Positions 43,591 to 55,059 of a stretch of DNA of 55,059 bases are shown in pieces (the stretch's first letter is position 1; the number at the start of each line of letters is the position of its first letter). This DNA comes from Thermodesulfobacteriota bacterium. Its GTDB lineage: Bacteria; Desulfobacterota; WTBG01; CAIYCZ01; CAIRTM01. The position numbers and the translations under genes are program-made. Below the pieces are notes generated by a model. It ran no database searches and was not told the origin of the DNA. It worked only from the letters and a program-made list of their open reading frames with translations. Location of the stretch: positions 1 through 55,059 of the forward strand of contig JANQGV010000215.1 of assembly GCA_028282925.1 (NCBI GenBank), read 5' to 3'.

Positions 43591-44697
43591 TTACAGAGCG
43601 TTGTTGGAAGTCGTTGAGGGCTCTGAAACCATTTCAAGATCATCGATTGAGGTATCCAGCAACTGGGCAATGTATTCGCCGTTATGCACATGCCCGCCGG
43701 GGTCTTTCAGCGATGTCTGGTAGTTGTAGGCTGCCTTCAGCAGACGCGGAGTCCAGGCATTGTATTGGTTGCTGAACGCTAATTCGTCGGCGTCGGCTAT
43801 GCCGTTTTCATTTGTATCTATGAAGTAGTACGGGTACGTTACGGCATCATATACAATTGCAGTACCGGCGGTGTTGGTGCCGTAGTTCTGAATTGCGGCA
43901 AACAGCTTGGTCTGGAGACCCATGATTTCATAGTACATACCTTCGGATGAGTCACCGTCGCCGTCATAGTCGGTCGAAGACATCTTAATGTCTTTCACAT
44001 CGGTCTCGCCTGCATGACAGGTAAAACAGTTGTCGGCTGTGACTTGCAGGGAGTGCGGGCTGTGGCACTCAACACAGGTGCTGTAATTAGTGGTATGCGT
44101 AAACTGACCGGCATAGGTTTCTCCGTCATATTCATAACCACCGCTTACATCGGACCCGTACAGGGTAGCACCGGCAGCATAGTAATGGATATTCAGAAAA
44201 CTCAGATCCTCTGATACGGTATCGTCATCGGCTACACCGGCTTCGGTAATTGCCGCATCCACCGTTGTCTTGGCCTGGCGGCCCTGGTGACAGGTCATGC
44301 AGATTGCTTCATCACCCAGTCCGGTCAATTCTACACCGGAAGGAAAGGTAACGCTGGTAATATTGCGAACGGCATTTGAGTCGTCATGGCACACAGTACA
44401 GCCGATGTTGTTTTCACCGGTTCCGGCGGTTACTTCATTGTCGACTGTGCCGGCAGCCGTTCCATCGACACCGATAAAATCCTGGAAACCTTCCGGGCTG
44501 TGGCATTTTGCGCAGGAGGTCGGTATTACGGCAGGATCATCTTCATCCCAGTGTACAAATGCTTCTGCCGTGCTATCGGCATGGGCTGACGTTTCCCAGG
44601 CCTCTTCCTGGGGCGACTTTGTTTCGCATGTTTGCCCCATTATGGCAAACGATGCCAGAAGTAAAACAATACTTGTCCAACTGGTAAACTTTTTCAT
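43591..44697 (-). CDS. Pentaheme c-type cytochrome, exported
   Basis: 368 residues. A GGAGGAGG ribosome site precedes the ATG. A signal peptide ends near MGQTCETKS, possibly a weak lipobox. Five CxxCH heme sites are seen: CAKCH (near 60), CTVCH (98), CMTCH (136), CVECH (210) and CFTCH (226). The C-terminal 130 residues have no heme site and include a DTNENGIADADEL calcium-type acidic loop. It is downstream of an octaheme cytochrome with a terminator between. Likely a periplasmic or surface electron carrier of this respiratory locus. Confidence 0.88.
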   Translation of the reverse strand: MKKFTSWTSIVLLLASFAIMGQTCETKSPQEEAWETSAHADSTAEAFVHWDEDDPAVIPTSCAKCHSPEGFQDFIGVDGTAAGTVDNEVTAGTGENNIGCTVCHDDSNAVRNITSVTFPSGVELTGLGDEAICMTCHQGRQAKTTVDAAITEAGVADDDTVSEDLSFLNIHYYAAGATLYGSDVSGGYEYDGETYAGQFTHTTNYSTCVECHSPHSLQVTADNCFTCHAGETDVKDIKMSSTDYDGDGDSSEGMYYEIMGLQTKLFAAIQNYGTNTAGTAIVYDAVTYPYYFIDTNENGIADADELAFSNQYNAWTPRLLKAAYNYQTSLKDPGGHVHNGEYIAQLLDTSIDDLEMVSEPSTTSNNAL

Positions 44698-44839: not shown

Positions 44840-44875
44840 AAAAAAAAAAGCCCTGTCCGAGAGACAGGGCCTTTT
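44840..44875 (-). terminator. Bidirectional terminator after the octaheme cytochrome gene
   Basis: GCCCTGTC/GACAGGGC is a perfect 8-bp stem with a 5-nt loop and an A-run on one side and TTTT on the other. On the minus strand it ends the octaheme gene with a long T tract. Confidence 0.88.
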
Positions 44876-44897: not shown

Positions 44898-46487
44898 TTA
44901 TCTGTTTTTCTGTAAACTCTGCAGTTCAGCAGAAGAATAGCCCAGGTAGGTCCAGAAATTGCCGTCTGAGCTGTGACAGGAGTTACACCCGGCAGTATCA
45001 TACCCCAGGGCGTTTTTACCACTTTGAACCCCGTGATTAAGCTTCAGGGGACATATCATGGGAAAGGCAAAAACCAGTCCCAACGATTTTCTAAACTCAA
45101 AATCATATGCTCCTTTTGAAAACCAACCCGAAGCATCAACCCCTTTATCGGCGGCAGTTTCAAGATCTCCGTCTACAAGGAAGTCTTTAAGAATATACGG
45201 CACGGCATTACCAAATCCGATATCAAACCACACCCGGGCCTCATAGCGCTTAAACGGTGTTATTTTAGAACCATCTCCACGTCTGTATCCCCATTTGCCG
45301 CCACGGGGACCTATGGGACACGGCCCTTCCAGTACCCCTTCCCATCCGCCGGATGTACCGTTAAACCAGCGGTACTCGGGCTCTACACCATATTCAACGC
45401 GGTCTCTAAAACCATAAAAATGCTGATTCCCGTATGGTTCAATCGGCTCGGTTAAATCCCTGAACACCAGGCCGCCGGTAGATCGTATATGGCAGGTCTG
45501 GCACGCAAGAAAATCGGCATGCCCGTCAAAGGTTGCTTTGAAGGCGTTTTCGGATGAGGCATGGGGTGCATTACCATGGCAACTGGAGCAGTTGAAATCG
45601 TCCGGAACGATATCATGGGCCCAGGATACATTATGATGTCCGTATTTGACCTTATGCTCACCTGCATAATGGCAATCGGCACACGTTATTCCGGCGGCGG
45701 CATGGACATCACCGTCAATGGTGGCTGTTGCCATGGTGCCGTCACCGGTGTCATAATTCAGTTCATACGACTCGGCCACAAAATCGGTGCCGTATTTAAA
45801 AGCTTTGCTGAGGGTCCCGTATGGGCTGAAAACCTTACCACCGGTGTTAATGTGGCAACGTTTGCAGGCCTCGGTCGTTACTTTGTCTCCAACAGTCTGT
45901 GCATCCTCAAGAGTCGCCATGCTCCAGTAGGAAGTGCCGTTTGCATCTGTTTTAACCGTACGCAGTCCGTCTGGGCCGCCTCCGTCATAGGTTATACCGT
46001 GACACAGCACACAATCGATCTGCTGTTTGACTTGGGTGGTAATTGCTGCGGGCTCCCCCTGAGCATTCACCGGTATAGCATCGGGCCCTGCCCCGATATG
46101 GCAACTGCCGCATCCCGCATCTTTTATGTATTCCGTGTCGAAAATACTGGTCCACCGACCTGCCCAGTTGGCCCCAACGAGGCCGCCGGGAAGTCCTCAG
46201 TAGCGGTTTCCTTTACCGTGCATTCCTGTTACCGGCTGGTTGGTAAACATGTCATACACGTCCTGTACCTGTCCCAGCATTTTGTAGTGAATGGAGCCTG
46301 TTATCTCGTCTACAGCATCAGAATGACAGGGTAAACAGGTCTTTGATCCTTCATATGACGTTAGCAGGTCTGTATGGTCTGTTGCAGCATTTGCTGAACG
46401 AATACTCAGTAACATACCGATAAATAATGATAAATACAGGAATATTTTCAGATGTTCACTGTAGTACGATATGTTTTGTCTCTGCAT
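44898..46487 (-). CDS. Octaheme c-type cytochrome with in-frame TGA (putative selenocysteine at residue 97)
   Basis: 529 residues if the TGA at 46197-46199 is read as Sec. The ATG at 46487 has GGGGAGGG 6 nt upstream and starts a signal peptide (IFLYLSLFIGMLLSIRSANA). The frame before the TGA has one heme site (CLPCH near 51). The same frame after it has seven more (CGSCH, CVLCH, CKRCH, CADCH, CSSCH, CQTCH, CNSCH). The sequence around the TGA reads KGNRY-U-GLPGG. A 6-bp hairpin GGCCTC-GTT-GGGGCC starts 12 nt after the TGA, like a bacterial SECIS. The downstream part has no signal peptide or ribosome site of its own. If the TGA were a true stop, the cytochrome would be lost. Likely periplasmic redox enzyme. 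Confidence 0.82.
46170..46196 (-). other. Putative SECIS element of the octaheme cytochrome
   Basis: On the minus strand, after the TGA, come 12 nt, then GGCCTC (46184-46179), loop GTT (46178-46176) and GGGGCC (46175-46170), giving six pairs with one G-U. The apical G-U and its distance of 18 nt from the UGA match known bacterial SECIS hairpins bound by SelB. CCC and GGG further out may extend the stem. Confidence 0.7.
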
Positions 46488-46626: not shown

Positions 46627-46657
46627 GAAAACCGGCATGTCGTACACACCGGTTTTC
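46627..46657 (-). terminator. Terminator after the double-rhodanese gene
   Basis: GAAAACCGG/CCGGTTTTC is a perfect 9-bp stem with a 13-nt loop, with a T-rich downstream side. It lies about 33 bp past the rhodanese stop codon. Confidence 0.8.
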
Positions 46658-46689: not shown

Positions 46690-47670
46690 CTACTCCAGAA
46701 TGCTTGTATAATCATCAACTGGAGCACTGTATTTGCTTTTCGTCATGGAATTGTAAGCAAATCCGTTTACACCGAAGAGCAGGCTTTTGGCGTCATATCC
46801 CAGCAGGCGCAGGTACGCAACAACCTGAGCAGAGGTCTGGCCGGTGTAACAGTAGATAACGACCGTTTCGTCGGTGGGAAGCAGGTTCAGGCTTTCATCG
46901 CTCTTGAGGGATGATTTAGGCGTAAACTGATATGCGCCGGGAATATGGCCCGGGTCTGCATATTCTTCAGCCGGCCAGTAGTTGACGATGAAATAGTCGC
47001 CGGTGCTTGAATAAACAGATGCGGCATCAATGGACCAGCCGTTGGCTGCTTCATCGAGGTTTGCTTTCACAATACCGGCAATGGTGGTCTCACCGGTTGC
47101 GGGGTCGGGAAATTCGTTTTCAGTATCGGTGGATGCCGGTGTCGTGTCCAGGGTGAATTCATCCTCTTCAATGGCACTTGCCCATTTATTTGATTTGGGA
47201 ACAATGTTTGTATCGGTTGTGATCGAGCACATGCCGAACTTCAGATTACGGGCTTCAAGGCCTTCATAGGCCGGGTCCTGCCCTACCAGGTTCATAACCG
47301 CCGTTGCAAAACTGGCATTCTGACCGGTGTAGCATACATTGACGATCAACTGGTCGGTGGGCAGCGTGTCGATATTGTCGTCCAGGTCCGTCAGTGCCAT
47401 ATTGATTGCACCCTTAATATGAGCAGCGGCATAATCCTCTGCCGACCGGAAGTCGATGATATAGGGAGGATCATCGCTGTTGATAAGCACCAGCAGGTCT
47501 GCAATGGTAATGTTAGGGCTTGCAGATGTGTCCGGTGTTGTGTATGCGGTGAAATACGTATCGCCTGCAGCGCTCAGTACGGTAAATTCATTTACCGGCT
47601 CTTCGCAGGCAAACAGAAATGCCGTGGCTGCAACGGCTACAAACAGTGAAACTATTTTTTTTGCAAACAT
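46690..47670 (-). CDS. Lipoprotein with two rhodanese domains
   Basis: 326 residues from the ATG at 47670, which has AAGGAGAG at ideal spacing; a longer frame to 47727 lacks this. The lipoprotein signal ends FLFAC with the lipidated Cys near 22. Two rhodanese domains follow, each with an active-site loop: VNVCYTGQNAS (about 114) and VIYCYTGQTSAQ (about 271). Both Cys are kept, so both domains may carry persulfide or selenopersulfide. Rhodanese lipoproteins beside multiheme cytochromes occur in Geobacter outer-membrane electron conduits. Its place between two putative selenocytochromes suggests a sulfur or selenium transfer role in the envelope. Confidence 0.92.
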   Translation of the reverse strand: MFAKKIVSLFVAVAATAFLFACEEPVNEFTVLSAAGDTYFTAYTTPDTSASPNITIADLLVLINSDDPPYIIDFRSAEDYAAAHIKGAINMALTDLDDNIDTLPTDQLIVNVCYTGQNASFATAVMNLVGQDPAYEGLEARNLKFGMCSITTDTNIVPKSNKWASAIEEDEFTLDTTPASTDTENEFPDPATGETTIAGIVKANLDEAANGWSIDAASVYSSTGDYFIVNYWPAEEYADPGHIPGAYQFTPKSSLKSDESLNLLPTDETVVIYCYTGQTSAQVVAYLRLLGYDAKSLLFGVNGFAYNSMTKSKYSAPVDDYTSILE

Positions 47671-47845: not shown

Positions 47846-49240
47846 TTATTCAATAATAACTGATTTATTTGCGGCTCTCTCGCGGCTTATTGCATCGTAG
47901 CCGTATCCCGATTCGCCGTTTTCTTCCTTGTAATTAGCCTTTTCATACAGATCTATGTCGGATGACGTTAAATAGTAGTCGCTGTTATGACAATTGGTGC
48001 TGCATGAGGCTCCTTCATCAACCTGGGTCTGGGGTGTCCAGCGCTGGATATTGTGCGGAAACGTCATCTTCCAGGTCGGTTCACTGGTCTCAAAGTTCGG
48101 TAGATCCTCCACACCCCACGGCTCGAAGGTGTTGGGTGCAATGGGTATATGGCGTACCGTTATATAGTCATAGTCGCTATAACGTGAATTTGTTTCCTTA
48201 AGATAGTTTTTACCGATTTCAAACGTCATGTATGACGAACCGGTAATACCGCCGCCTGCAACATGGCAGCCGTTACAGTTTTTATAGGGCTGTGAATGAC
48301 ACACCTGGCACGACAGGGTCACACCGGTCGTTCCCTGCCAGTGGCTGGTGTGATAGGTGTTTGCATCCTTGGTGCCGGAATGACAGTTTTCACACTTTGG
48401 TGCGCTGTTATTGTTTTCATCAAAGCGGTATGTCAGGGTCGTGCCGTCACCGCCGTGCATTTCTTCCGCGTCGTGGCAGAACTCGCACTTTTTGGCATTG
48501 GGAACGTAATGGACATCGGCCTTGTATTCCTCATGAGCTCCGGTATATTCCTCGCCGATACGCGAACCATGACAGGCCGTGCAGTTGGTTGACAGATCAG
48601 GAGTTTTCCTGAATTCATGACCCCAGTTCAATCCGCTTCCGACTGTCACGGGGCGGATGACATGGCACTGTCCACAGGTTGCGTGGCATTTGCCGCACTC
48701 ACCTTTAAACTCCTCCAGAGCATGTTCGTAGCCCGGGTCGCGTAAATCATATCCGGCCCGAATCTTGAAGCGCTCGTAATAGCCTTCCTGGGTTGTATGG
48801 ATGCTTGTTTTGTAGTGGGCCGATTCGGTTGAATGACAGGGACTGCAGGTATATTCGGCCTCTTCGCTGGGGTATGGTATCAAATCCTCATGGGCCTCGG
48901 TTTTATCTTTGCCGTTGGGGTTGCCGTCGTGACAAAAAGTACACTCCATGGCGCCATGGGCGGTTTCCAGGAAATCTTCATCGATATACACACGTTTCCA
49001 AGGCTCCAACGGAGCCACAGATCCGCCTCAGCCCTCTCCCGTGGATTCGGTTGTCTCAATCGGGTCGGCTATCTCTTTCAACTTTTCCTTGTCCATATGA
49101 CAGCCCAGGCACCCGCCCTGGCTGTCGGCGGGTTCGCACCCCATAAGGCCGAATCCAAACAATAACGCCGCTGTTAAAAGAAGGGAGAGCCGCATATACT
49201 TTTGTTGGTGATGTACTGAAATTTTGATGTGTGTACTCAT
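47846..49240 (-). CDS. Eleven-heme lipoprotein cytochrome with in-frame TGA (putative selenocysteine)
   Basis: 464 residues if the TGA at 49028-49030 is read as Sec. Start at 49240, or at 49195 where the lipoprotein signal (MRLSLLLTAALLFGF.. to GLMGC) begins. One heme site precedes the TGA (CLGCH). After it in the same frame come CTFCH, CSPCH, CGKCH, CGQCH, CTACH, CEFCH, CENCH, CQVCH, CNGCH and a CxxxCH (CSTNCH), eleven in all. The context is TGEG-U-GGSVA. The hairpin GGCTCC-GTT-GGAGCC starts 11 nt after the TGA. Without recoding the long heme-rich part would have no export signal. Probably an outer-membrane or surface electron-transfer lipoprotein, first gene of its operon. Confidence 0.82.
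49002..49027 (-). other. Putative SECIS element of the 11-heme cytochrome
   Basis: After the TGA on the minus strand come 11 nt, then GGCTCC (49016-49011), loop GTT (49010-49008) and GGAGCC (49007-49002), six perfect pairs. The same GUU loop and nearly the same distance are found after the TGA of the octaheme gene, while the stems differ in sequence. Confidence 0.72.
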
Positions 49241-51078: not shown

Positions 51079-52176
51079 ATGAAAAACCGCGACCTTCTTA
51101 CATTCATCTGCTCATGCACATTTATACTGAGTGCTTTTTGCACTACGTCAAGCGCAACTGCCGCTGAAACGCCGATACCCTGCATCAGCATAACAGACTC
51201 GTCCGGGGCACAACAATCAACCTATGCTCCCGGCGACTCCCTGATATACACCGTTACGTTTCCTCTTGAACAACAGAGTCTTCTGCTGTTTACGGCCTCT
51301 GTTCGGTTCCCCGACAACAATGTCGACCGTACGAAACTGTATGTTTCACTATCCGAACAGGAAAAATCGGTTTGCTGGACCGGCACTGTTCCGGACGATG
51401 CAGCCGGCCGGGCTGAAGTTGTCGTTACCTCACTGATCCTGCCGGGTAAGTTTGTCATTGCCCGTAAAGACTTTGAGGTGTCCCGTTCCGGCGACGACAG
51501 AGATAATCCTTCTTTTATTTGCAGTGCCTGCCACGGCGATAACTACCGCGGTTGGAAGGAGACCCGCCATTACCCTGCCGTAGGCTGCGAGTTGTGCCAC
51601 GGTTCCGGTCAGAACCATATTACCGCACCCTCAAGTGATACCATATCAATACCCACCGGTGACATCTGCAACACATGTCACTCCGGCAACGACGGCACCG
51701 TTATTGAAGCCTCAAACGGCTTTATCAATGCTCAACAGCAACGCAACGAACTCGAGGACACCGCCCACGGCTCTGTTGCCGACTGCTGCACCTGTCACAA
51801 CCCGCATTACAGCCCGTCAAACAATAAAGCGTCGGCTATCAAGTTGACCTGCCGGCAGTGTCATCCTCAAAAGGACGTTTATTTAAATATGCAGTCCCTC
51901 GACTGCGAGGACTGTCATATGGCCCCGGCGGTCAGCAAGGGCGATTCTTCAGGCAGCGGTTTATATAAAAAAGGAGATACTCCGTCGCATCTTTTCAGGA
52001 TCAAAACAGAGGCGGCGGCTGATACATTTTTAACCCCCGACGGTACGGCCGCATCAAAGGATATTCACGGACCGTTTTTGACCGTCGACCGGGCATGTCT
52101 GCATTGTCACAATGGATTTGATGCCGGACTTCAAACCTTTGATTCCGTACAGCAGACGTCCACAATTGTTCATTAA
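51079..52176 (+). CDS. Heptaheme c-type cytochrome, exported
   Basis: 365 residues. The signal peptide ends TSSATAAE. An N-terminal strand-rich domain (about 35-145) looks Ig-like. Seven CxxCH sites follow: CSACH (near 149), CELCH, CNTCH, CCTCH, CRQCH, CEDCH and CLHCH (near 345). This matches periplasmic cytochromes of the NapC/NrfB-like multiheme kind that pass electrons from an inner-membrane quinol oxidase outward. It is followed after 27 bp by a formylglycine-enzyme-like lipoprotein and then by the CbcL-like quinol enzyme. The third gene is therefore a likely electron donor to this protein. Confidence 0.9.
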   Translation: MKNRDLLTFICSCTFILSAFCTTSSATAAETPIPCISITDSSGAQQSTYAPGDSLIYTVTFPLEQQSLLLFTASVRFPDNNVDRTKLYVSLSEQEKSVCWTGTVPDDAAGRAEVVVTSLILPGKFVIARKDFEVSRSGDDRDNPSFICSACHGDNYRGWKETRHYPAVGCELCHGSGQNHITAPSSDTISIPTGDICNTCHSGNDGTVIEASNGFINAQQQRNELEDTAHGSVADCCTCHNPHYSPSNNKASAIKLTCRQCHPQKDVYLNMQSLDCEDCHMAPAVSKGDSSGSGLYKKGDTPSHLFRIKTEAAADTFLTPDGTAASKDIHGPFLTVDRACLHCHNGFDAGLQTFDSVQQTSTIVH

Positions 52177-52203
52177 CGTAGAAACGTTTTATGGATTTTT
52201 TCG

Positions 52204-52962
52204 ATGAGTAACTACAAACTGTGCATATTGATTCTGGTTTTACTCGTTCCCGGCGGCTGTGCACTGACGCAGGTCGGCACAACCAGTGCGCCCCACCCGT
52301 CGGCACCTGAAGGCATGGTGTACATACCGGGAGGAACGTTCACTATGGGGTCGGAATCGGGCGACCCCGATGAACAGCCGGTGCACCCGGTGACCGTACG
52401 GCATTTCTTTATCGACATGCATGAGGTTACCATCGGTCAATACCATCGGTTCATGGATGCAACCAACCACCCTGCACCGGAATTCTGCAATCCCGACATC
52501 GACAACCCTCAAGACCCGGTTGTGGGAATAAGCTGGCATGACGCTGTTGCCTATGCAGCCTGGGCCGGCAAGCGGCTTCCCACCGAGGCCGAATGGGAAT
52601 ATGCCGCCCGGGGCGGCTCCGAAAAGGCGGTATATCCCTGGGGGAACAAACCCGATAGCACGAAAGCCAATTATAACTCATTCGGTATTATGCAGGTAAA
52701 GCAGTTCGCTCCCAATGGCTTCGGCGTATACGATTCGGCCGGTAATGTCTGGGAATGGTGTGCGGACTGGTATCTTGATACATATTATCTTTTCAGCCCC
52801 GGGAAGAACCCTACGGGTCCTTCGGTGGGTATGCATAAAATACTTCGCGGCGGAGCATGGTACTGTGAGAATGCCCAGGTACGCACCGCCAATCGTTACT
52901 ATTCACTGCCCGATGCAACCAGTTTTCATGTCGGGTTCAGATGTGCGAAATCAATAGATTGA
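52204..52962 (+). CDS. Formylglycine-generating-enzyme-like (SUMF1) lipoprotein
   Basis: 252 residues. The lipoprotein signal ends VPGGC with lipidated Cys near 19. The SUMF1/FGE-sulfatase domain fills about 40-250: MVYIPGGTFTMGSESGDPDE, MHEVTIGQYHRFM, RLPTEAEWEYAARGG near 128, NVWEWCADWYLDTYY near 180 and the end LRGGAWYCENAQVRT..GFRCA. True FGE oxidises a sulfatase Cys with two active-site Cys. Here the Cys in AWYCENA is present, but most relatives are structural or carbohydrate-binding. No sulfatase is nearby, so I favour a scaffold or assembly role for the cytochrome complex. Confidence 0.88.
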   Translation: MSNYKLCILILVLLVPGGCALTQVGTTSAPHPSAPEGMVYIPGGTFTMGSESGDPDEQPVHPVTVRHFFIDMHEVTIGQYHRFMDATNHPAPEFCNPDIDNPQDPVVGISWHDAVAYAAWAGKRLPTEAEWEYAARGGSEKAVYPWGNKPDSTKANYNSFGIMQVKQFAPNGFGVYDSAGNVWEWCADWYLDTYYLFSPGKNPTGPSVGMHKILRGGAWYCENAQVRTANRYYSLPDATSFHVGFRCAKSID

Positions 52963-52971
52963 TGTGAAACA

Positions 52972-55059
52972 ATGAAAAAAACTCTTTTTACTAAAAACAA
53001 CCTGGTCCTTCTAACCACCTTTTTGTGCTGTTTATTTGCCGGTTCTCCTGTTTACGCCATAGACGAAGAAAATTGTCTCATGTGTCACCGCCACCGTGGC
53101 TTGAGCCATATCGATGAAAACGGCAATTTCCGCCTGCTGTACATTTCCGAGCCGATATATCAAAACAGCCCCCACGGGCTTTTTGCCTGCACCGACTGCC
53201 ATACCGATATCAAGGAAATGCCCCACACTAATGCCAAAAAAGTCGACTGTCTGATGCAGTGCCATCTGGACGACAGTTACAGGTGGCGTGAGTTTTCACA
53301 TGCCGAAGTCGGCGAGATTATGGCCGAAAGCGTCCATAGCCCTGTGGATGCCGACGGTAATCTAAAACCTCACCAGGAAGACTATCCGACCTGCAAGACA
53401 TGTCATCAGGACCCGCTGTACCGCCCCCTGGCTTTTTTTAAAAACGTGCGCCCGGGTGTATCCGATAAAATTATCAACCGCTGTCTTGTCTGCCATGACG
53501 ATCCTGTGTATGTTAAAAAGTTCTACAACCATTTTTCTTCCCGGATGCAGAAGGGCCGCTCTCCCCGTGAAGTTGTTGAGATGTGCGCTACCTGTCATGA
53601 GGATCGTAACTTTCAGCAACGTCACAACCTGAGTGATGTCGTCTATTCTTACTGGGAAACCTATCACGGAAAAGCCGTTTTCTTCGGCGATGAGATGTCC
53701 CCCGACTGTCTCGACTGCCATGCAGGCTTTACAGGCTCGGTCCACTCAATGCACGCATCCGACGACCCCCGGTCATCGGTTCATCCCGATAATGTACACC
53801 TTTCATGTTCCAATATAGACTGTCACCCCACCTCTGATCCGAATCTGGCAGACTATGATGTACATATGCTGGTTGACAGGGAAGAACACGCCGTTGAATA
53901 TTATATATCGGCATTCTTCGTCACCTTGACGCTCCTGAGTTTTATCCCTATCATGCTGGCGCTTATCCTTGACTTGATACGCAGTCTCGTACCGGTAAAA
54001 ACCATACAGGAACATCGCCCGACTCCCCCCAGACCGCTTGTAGACGGAGTTGAACTGGGCAATCCCGATCCGATTGTTCAGGAGAAGCGGGGGAAAAAAT
54101 ACTTTTACCACCTTACCCTTAATCAACGATTTCAGCATATTGTTCTGATGGTCGCCTTTGCCGGGCTGGCACTTACCGGACTCCCCATGAAGTACTTTCA
54201 CGTGTCTTTTATGGAGAAATTGTATTACCTGATCGGCGGTATAGAGTTGGCACCGTTGCTGCACAGGATTTTTGCTGTGGCAATGATTATTATTTTCGCA
54301 TACCACTTTATCTATATACTGAGTACCTACATTACCTATTATTACATTCCTCTCATAAAGGCCCGTAAATGCACATTTACTAATTTTATAAAAAGTATGC
54401 TGGCCCTTCCCATGGTACCCACACTGGAAGATCTGCGTGACGCCTGGAAAATGAATAAATACCGGCTTTTTATTACCAATGTGAGACCTGCTTCCGGTCG
54501 TTTTACCCTAAAAGAGAAATTCGGATATTTTGCCGTTTTCTGGGGTGTGCCGGTCATCGGAATTTCCGGTCTGATGCTCTGGGGCGAAGAACTGTACAGC
54601 AAATACTTTGTTATAAAACATTTCCTCAATGCCTGTTACATAGCTCACAGTGATGAAGCATTGCTGGCCTGTATTGTAATTTTCCTGTGGCATATATACA
54701 ATACCCACCTGAAATATGAAAATTTTCCCATGGGTATGGCCTGGCTCACCGGGTACAAACATGAAAAGGAAATAGAAGAAGGCCATGCCGGATATTACCA
54801 GGGCCTGGTCGGTGAAAAACAACATGCTTCCGATCGCGGCGGCACACCTTCAGGTGTCGGTGCCCTGATTTTCAGAAAATGCTTTCAGTCCACACTTCTC
54901 CTGGTTTTGATTGCTTCCACCGGCTTTTTAAGCTGGGTTGTTTTCAATACGGTTTTCGGATATCATGTCATCGCGTACAAAAAAGCTCCTGAGCAATACC
55001 CTCTCACAAAGCCGAATTTTCTCGAAGAGGTTGTAACAGGAGGCACCTGCGACAAAAAA
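52972..55059 (+). CDS. CbcL-like inner-membrane cytochrome (eight-heme c domain fused to b-type domain), partial at window end
   Basis: At least 696 residues, with no stop before the window end. The signal peptide ends PVYAIDEEN. The periplasmic part (about 25-290) has six CxxCH sites (CLMCH, CTDCH, CKTCH, CLVCH, CATCH, CLDCH) plus two stretched sites, CxxxCH (CLMQCH) and CxxxxCH (CSNIDCH). A membrane segment near 310-335 follows, then from about 384 a cytochrome-b-like domain starting TLNQRFQHIVLMVAFAGLAL, with several membrane His (LLHRIFAVAMII, YHFIY, FLWHIYN). This fusion matches Geobacter CbcL, a menaquinol oxidase that starts extracellular electron transfer. It would feed the heptaheme protein encoded upstream. 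The ATG at 52972 follows the FGE-like gene by 9 bp. Confidence 0.9.
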   Translation, partial: MKKTLFTKNNLVLLTTFLCCLFAGSPVYAIDEENCLMCHRHRGLSHIDENGNFRLLYISEPIYQNSPHGLFACTDCHTDIKEMPHTNAKKVDCLMQCHLDDSYRWREFSHAEVGEIMAESVHSPVDADGNLKPHQEDYPTCKTCHQDPLYRPLAFFKNVRPGVSDKIINRCLVCHDDPVYVKKFYNHFSSRMQKGRSPREVVEMCATCHEDRNFQQRHNLSDVVYSYWETYHGKAVFFGDEMSPDCLDCHAGFTGSVHSMHASDDPRSSVHPDNVHLSCSNIDCHPTSDPNLADYDVHMLVDREEHAVEYYISAFFVTLTLLSFIPIMLALILDLIRSLVPVKTIQEHRPTPPRPLVDGVELGNPDPIVQEKRGKKYFYHLTLNQRFQHIVLMVAFAGLALTGLPMKYFHVSFMEKLYYLIGGIELAPLLHRIFAVAMIIIFAYHFIYILSTYITYYYIPLIKARKCTFTNFIKSMLALPMVPTLEDLRDAWKMNKYRLFITNVRPASGRFTLKEKFGYFAVFWGVPVIGISGLMLWGEELYSKYFVIKHFLNACYIAHSDEALLACIVIFLWHIYNTHLKYENFPMGMAWLTGYKHEKEIEEGHAGYYQGLVGEKQHASDRGGTPSGVGALIFRKCFQSTLLLVLIASTGFLSWVVFNTVFGYHVIAYKKAPEQYPLTKPNFLEEVVTGGTCDKK

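Follow-up and report, generated by a model that had tools for sequence, protein, structure and literature searches.

Does the in-frame TGA in a gene for an octaheme cytochrome c result from a nonsense mutation or a sequencing error, or does it encode selenocysteine (Sec)? This question is raised by a stretch of DNA from a Thermodesulfobacteriota bacterium (contig JANQGV010000215.1, assembly GCA_028282925.1), which is 55,059 nucleotides long and is referred to here as the window. A preliminary description, made from the sequence alone, had proposed that the gene is read through the TGA and that its product is a candidate selenoprotein, and this reading is supported by the results presented here. 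We conclude that the gene very likely encodes a Sec-containing periplasmic cytochrome of the octaheme tetrathionate reductase (OTR) superfamily, in which Sec occupies the position of the active-site Cys, whereby the actual presence of Sec in the cell is inferred. The assignment as a selenoprotein is based on an alignment column populated by Sec and Cys, a Cys-containing homologue from a genome in which no SelA was found, the presence of sel genes in the window's own genome, and equal dN values on both sides of the TGA.

Reading frame and family of the octaheme cytochrome

The octaheme gene is located on the minus strand at positions 44898..46487; the preliminary description had cited it in plus-strand numbering and named no strand. 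Its frame starts with an ATG at 46487, a few bases downstream of AGGGGAGGG, and extends over 529 codons to a TAA at 44898. The N-terminus following the ATG is hydrophobic and signal-like. The sole break in the frame, and the only lesion found in it, is the TGA at 46197-46199 (minus strand), which corresponds to residue 97 and is embedded in the motif GNRY-U-GLPGG. Eight CxxCH motifs are encoded (residues 51, 126, 159, 208, 269, 300, 329, and 501), one of them before and seven after the TGA. Thus, the frame with its start, signal-like N-terminus, first heme site, TGA, seven further heme sites, and TAA held as previously described. The same is true for the claim that the second part is not fit to function alone: taken separately, it would begin with a GTG at 46070, past heme 2, and lack a signal sequence. 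The list of open reading frames made with translation table 11 contains only this second part.

Comparison with the closest homologue, L025, revealed a dN of 0.256 before and 0.273 after the TGA; dS was saturated, and therefore only dN was used. The equal values indicate that both parts of the octaheme gene are under the same constraint. A general reassignment of UGA had already been excluded in the preliminary description on the grounds that UGA ends many other genes, and this held, as TGA is the stop codon of 11 of the 38 window ORFs with at least 180 amino acids. Terminator-like stems of 14 pairs each are found on both sides of the octaheme gene, one behind it at 44845..44875 and one between the rhodanese gene and the octaheme gene at 46627..46657 (both on the minus strand), and the gene might therefore form its own transcription unit.

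The best NCBIfam match of the octaheme protein is TIGR04315, the tetrathionate reductase family of octaheme cytochromes (E 3e-26). The score of 92.4 bits is well under the curated cut-off of 375 bits. An AlphaFold model, calculated with an alignment of 47 relatives, had a pLDDT of 73.7. Foldseek returned for this model a single significant match (E 1e-14, probability 1.00, TM 0.58-0.69), namely PDB entry 1SP3, which represents the Shewanella oneidensis octaheme cytochrome, and the next-best match had an E value of 0.93. Based on the TIGR04315 match and the sole structural match, the protein is a divergent OTR relative that falls outside the TIGR04315 subfamily as defined by the cut-off. A search of genome contigs yielded only one relative from Thermodesulfobacteriota MAG SKW55 (genome G034) and one distant cytochrome. 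Plasmid records contained merely distant, ordinary relatives of the OTR family, and no relatives were found on viral contigs.

The residue-97 column and the selenocysteine machinery

The preliminary description had suggested inspecting homologues for Cys or TGA at residue 97 and searching the genome for sel genes. Both checks were passed. In an alignment of 80 OTR-family sequences, mostly taken from 395 genomes of the phylum, the residue-97 column contains 46 Cys, 33 TGA, and one Ala. None of the 33 in-domain TGAs in the family occurs outside this column, which corresponds to residue 64 of 1SP3 by chain count (SINNFC64). Cys64 is reported to be an active-site residue of OTR, as are Asn61, Asp150, and Lys153 (Mowat et al., 2004). 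Heme II has been described as the catalytic heme (PMC4484225). Cys64 of 1SP3 is situated beside the catalytic heme, and Lys153 is a ligand of this heme. In the window protein, residue 97 lies in sequence between hemes 1 and 2, and Asn61 is conserved as N94. The positions of Lys153 and Asp150 are not clearly conserved. The Lys153 column is occupied by Lys in 77/80 sequences and by Pro in the window protein and L025, both of which carry a KYG motif that follows this column inside a clade-specific insertion. The single family member with Ala at the Cys64 column, L117 of genome G088, also lacks Lys153, as if the two residues work together.

Some further family members deserve mention in their own right. 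With neither Cys64 nor Lys153, L117 looks like an OTR-family protein that has lost its active site. A third OTR-like group, consisting of L045 (G268) and L049 (G154), carries a TGA at the Cys64 column (TYU/SYU-APPNTV), and L049 is adjacent to a Cys-form paralogue; a simple scan of this group revealed no clear SECIS. A partial octaheme relative at a contig edge in G253 (L026) has its TGA elsewhere (KGYUNNDGS, aligned near R402-R403), at a place not occupied by Cys, which possibly reflects a sequencing error or a decayed gene.

The closest homologue of the window protein, L025 from MAG SKW55, is 64% identical and reads GNRY-C-GLPGG, with TGC as the codon in question. SelA was not found in this genome, which is 97% complete; it was found in 70 of the 75 genomes tested. 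The window's genome, by comparison, encodes selA and tRNA-Sec (selC) together on one contig, which is just 3.6 kb long in this draft genome, as well as selB and selD, the latter with an in-frame TGA of its own at SAG-U-AAKISPGD. Two observations concern the same genome. The SelA on contig G000:C284 scores 351 bits, compared to 430-565 bits for most relatives, and might thus belong to a divergent or foreign sel locus. A second, canonical OTR (L099, G000:C66:7608-8960) likewise has a TGA at the Cys64 column.

In a phylogenetic tree, for which the site itself and the following 39 columns were left out, the Sec/Cys label requires at least six changes, five of which are forced by well-supported branches. 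The octaheme clade of the window contributes only one Sec sequence. These results establish the reading frame, the family, the Sec/Cys equivalence, the presence of the Sec machinery, and the constraint acting before and after the UGA.

SECIS-like hairpins and the adjacent 11-heme cytochrome

A hairpin with a GUU loop beginning 12 nt after the TGA had been noted previously. It is indeed present (GGCCUC-GUU-GGGGCC, 46170..46184, minus strand), with its loop 18 nt after the TGA, but it does not exceed chance: the z value of the hairpin alone is -1.14, and synonymous-codon shuffles equal it in 16-21% of cases (p 0.16-0.21). We therefore rejected it as stand-alone proof. Loop and spacing match the SECIS of the adjacent 11-heme gene. 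When the window was searched with a covariance model of the latter, the octaheme hairpin was recovered at the expected position, but only weakly (5.9 bits, E 7.8), as one of 12 hits, most of which are weak. The hairpin is consistent with a SECIS element and may be one, but taken alone the evidence is weak and does not amount to proof.

In canonical OTRs, a stem of 7-10 bp follows the UGA in the 30 Sec genes, compared to 2-5 bp in the 17 Cys genes. The stem is mostly CUGGUGC-AGGU-GCACCAG and located near the expected distance. The corresponding P value of 3e-10 is overstated, as related sequences are not independent. The 11-heme SECIS covariance model gave no hits to the canonical OTR hairpins. 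As a separate observation, 27/30 canonical Sec-OTRs, for example L071 and L105, and 0/17 Cys genes have an extra Cys (NWCRCTSCH; Pro in Cys forms, NWPRC), which could serve as a resolving Cys or have arisen as a side effect of the SECIS stem.

The preliminary description had missed a second in-frame TGA, located in the neighboring 11-heme cytochrome gene (47846..49240, minus strand), two genes upstream of the octaheme gene. The ORF list gives a GTG frame of 390 amino acids, and reading through the TGA at 49028-49030 (minus strand; residue 71, TGEG-U-GG) to an ATG at 49240 adds a lipobox (LMGC) and the first of 11 hemes. A SECIS hairpin, GGCUCC-GUU-GGAGCC, starts 11 nt after the TGA (49002..49016, minus strand). 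In 17 sequences, 97% of its cells are paired, compared to 36-52% in slid controls, and 11 cells have changed on both sides versus 3.3 in shuffles (0/500); the hairpin thus covaries in homologues.

Homologues of the 11-heme gene were found at 52 places in the 395 genomes, with exactly one TGA at 49 of them. The TGAs of all 28 aligned Sec sequences fall into one column after heme 1, within a glycine-rich motif that reads mostly GEGUGG or GEGUAG and VAGUGV in one subgroup. The sole aligned full-length sequence without a TGA has Tyr at this position. A second class comprises 27 places with a TGA, and its paralogues without TGA have lost the motif (GVNPAG, GVGPTG); some records are common to both searches. 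No Cys form was seen among the homologues of either class in the 395 genomes. SelA was detected in 43 of 48 genomes tested, that is, 47 with an 11-heme gene plus G034, which lacks both. At two loci (G097:C1:13576-17145 and G223:C19:22608-26182), an 11-heme Sec gene is situated about 1.3 kb from selA.

The 11-heme protein matched no NCBIfam model, its AlphaFold model was poor (pLDDT 47.6), and no entry for the family was found in the table of selenoproteins in PMC13188914. Fujita et al. (PMC1914089) remarked that few selenoproteins lack Cys homologues. We consider it likely that the adjacent cytochrome is a second selenoprotein. A partnership with the octaheme protein is conceivable and is merely inferred. 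On a bolder reading, towards which we lean with reservation, the locus encodes two Sec cytochromes, an OTR-like protein with a catalytic Sec and a member of an uncatalogued 11-heme GxGU(G/A) Sec family.

Between the two cytochrome genes lies a gene for a two-domain rhodanese lipoprotein (46690..47670, minus strand; likely ATG at about 47670). Downstream of the octaheme gene, a lipoprotein-like multiheme cytochrome with five CxxCH motifs is encoded at 43591..44697 (minus strand), whose tie to the system is unproven. The region 51079..55059 on the plus strand encodes a multiheme cytochrome, a protein with an FGE-sulfatase domain, and a multiheme/cytochrome b membrane protein that is cut by the window end. 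In G034, homologues of these proteins, including the membrane protein, are encoded next to the octaheme gene of the Cys form, and the membrane protein also recurs in G071, G097, G329, and G069. Adjacent rhodanese and 11-heme genes occur in G071 and G244 as well, and 11-heme and OTR-family genes are neighbors in G363 and G244. The recurrence of rhodanese, 11-heme, OTR-family, and cytochrome b genes points to a possible periplasmic respiratory system for a sulfur or selenium substrate, which remains an inference.

Proposed function, rival explanations, and known systems

According to our model, UGA 97 would be decoded by SelB and tRNA-Sec, which is the well-supported step, and the exported octaheme protein would receive eight hemes. 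Sec97 would be positioned next to the catalytic heme 2, where OTR of Shewanella has Cys64. Its selenolate may attack an S-S bond, as in tetrathionate or polysulfide, as inferred from OTR and the known reactivity of selenolates; an alternative soft, oxidized substrate would possibly be a selenium or tellurium oxyanion. Electrons would be delivered to the substrate through heme 2 and the heme chain, with a multiheme/cytochrome b membrane protein, for instance the one encoded from 52972 onward, as their putative source. Sec in the cell, catalysis, substrate chemistry, and electron donor are all inferred, without expression or mass-spectrometric data.

The rival that survives best accepts the selenoprotein and questions its function. 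In this case, the protein would not reduce sulfur compounds but conduct electrons or represent a heme-ligand variant, with Sec ligating a heme or guarding against oxidation. In favor of this view, there is no clear conservation at the Lys and Asp positions of the OTR site, and the genes surrounding the octaheme gene code for multiheme lipoproteins and a cytochrome b of the membrane. Moreover, nitrite and hydroxylamine are further substrates of OTR (PMC4484225, PMC6449678), so that more than one substrate is possible. Against it stand the near-invariance of Cys/Sec across the family and the joint loss of Cys/Sec and Lys153 in L117, both of which point to an active site. We regard the rival as a serious one, yet less likely than the catalytic reading. 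The preliminary description had left open whether Sec is catalytic or heme-ligating; a catalytic role fits better because residue 97 is aligned to Cys64 of 1SP3, although this is inferred.

A second rival explains the TGA by a nonsense mutation or a sequencing error in an ordinary Cys-form gene. Indeed, a single base separates TGA from the TGC of the nearest homologue, our evidence for the gene comes from a single draft contig, and the misplaced TGA of the G253 relative implies that such lesions or errors occur. However, the TGA coincides exactly with the only family column in which TGA recurs (33 sequences), the frame is otherwise free of lesions with equal dN on both sides, and the genome has the Sec machinery as well as an OTR paralogue and an adjacent cytochrome with TGAs at conserved sites. 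This explanation is thus very unlikely. The weakest rival, decoding of UGA as another residue (by suppression, or as Trp) or synthesis of two separate polypeptides, recalls the non-selenoprotein alternative raised by Fujita et al. for a Geobacter cytochrome without a detectable SECIS (PMC1914089), but is also very unlikely given that UGA terminates 11/38 window ORFs, that homologues have Cys and never Trp at the site, and that the second part lacks a start, a signal, and heme 2.

With octaheme Sec97 at Cys64, selenocysteine is tied to an active-site residue of a multiheme respiratory reductase with a solved structure. Owing to this structure and the natural Sec/Cys pairs, the role of Sec beside the catalytic heme can be tested by exchange, and the at least five to six Sec/Cys changes on the tree represent natural replicates. 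The 11-heme family, widespread in Desulfobacterota and without a Cys homologue seen, would, if confirmed, be a rare Sec-only family. It suggests that selenoproteins among respiratory cytochromes are under-annotated, since gene callers split such genes at the TGA, as did the default table 11 ORF list here.

The preliminary description was not aware of a characterized Sec-containing multiheme cytochrome. This has to be corrected insofar as predicted examples exist. Sec-containing ExtKL cytochromes of Geobacter have been predicted since 2007 (PMC1914089, PMC5877670, PMC6148476), and a single OTR-family selenoprotein, WP_331457571.1, is included in a review from 2026 on the basis of its GenBank annotation, without Sec position or role (PMC13188914). 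The idea of a Sec-containing OTR relative is therefore not new. New, as far as found in open papers, are the equivalence of Sec and Cys64, the repeated switching between Sec and Cys (at least five to six times), the divergent Sec clade, and the Sec-only neighbor family.

ExtKL (NF040886) resembles the window's system in its predicted Sec in a multiheme cytochrome and in a gene for a rhodanese lipoprotein (extH) in its cluster. Unlike the window proteins, it has five hemes, and its Sec follows all of them at the K/L junction. Identity with ExtKL was rejected for both cytochromes, as the N-terminal part of the octaheme protein scores 14.1 bits against a cut-off of 250 and the 11-heme protein gave no match. 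The OTR-family selenoproteins, WP_331457571.1 and the 32 further TGA members found here, are closer; the TGA column is common to the members found here, whereas the clade of the window protein stands apart by its divergence and a hairpin of its own. With OTR of S. oneidensis (1SP3, TIGR04315), the window protein shares the fold, the eight CxxCH motifs, the Asn61 equivalent N94, and the Cys64 site at Sec97. It differs by Sec instead of Cys, an identity of only about 25% to canonical members, an insertion near the Lys153 region, and tetrathionate being no more than an inferred substrate.
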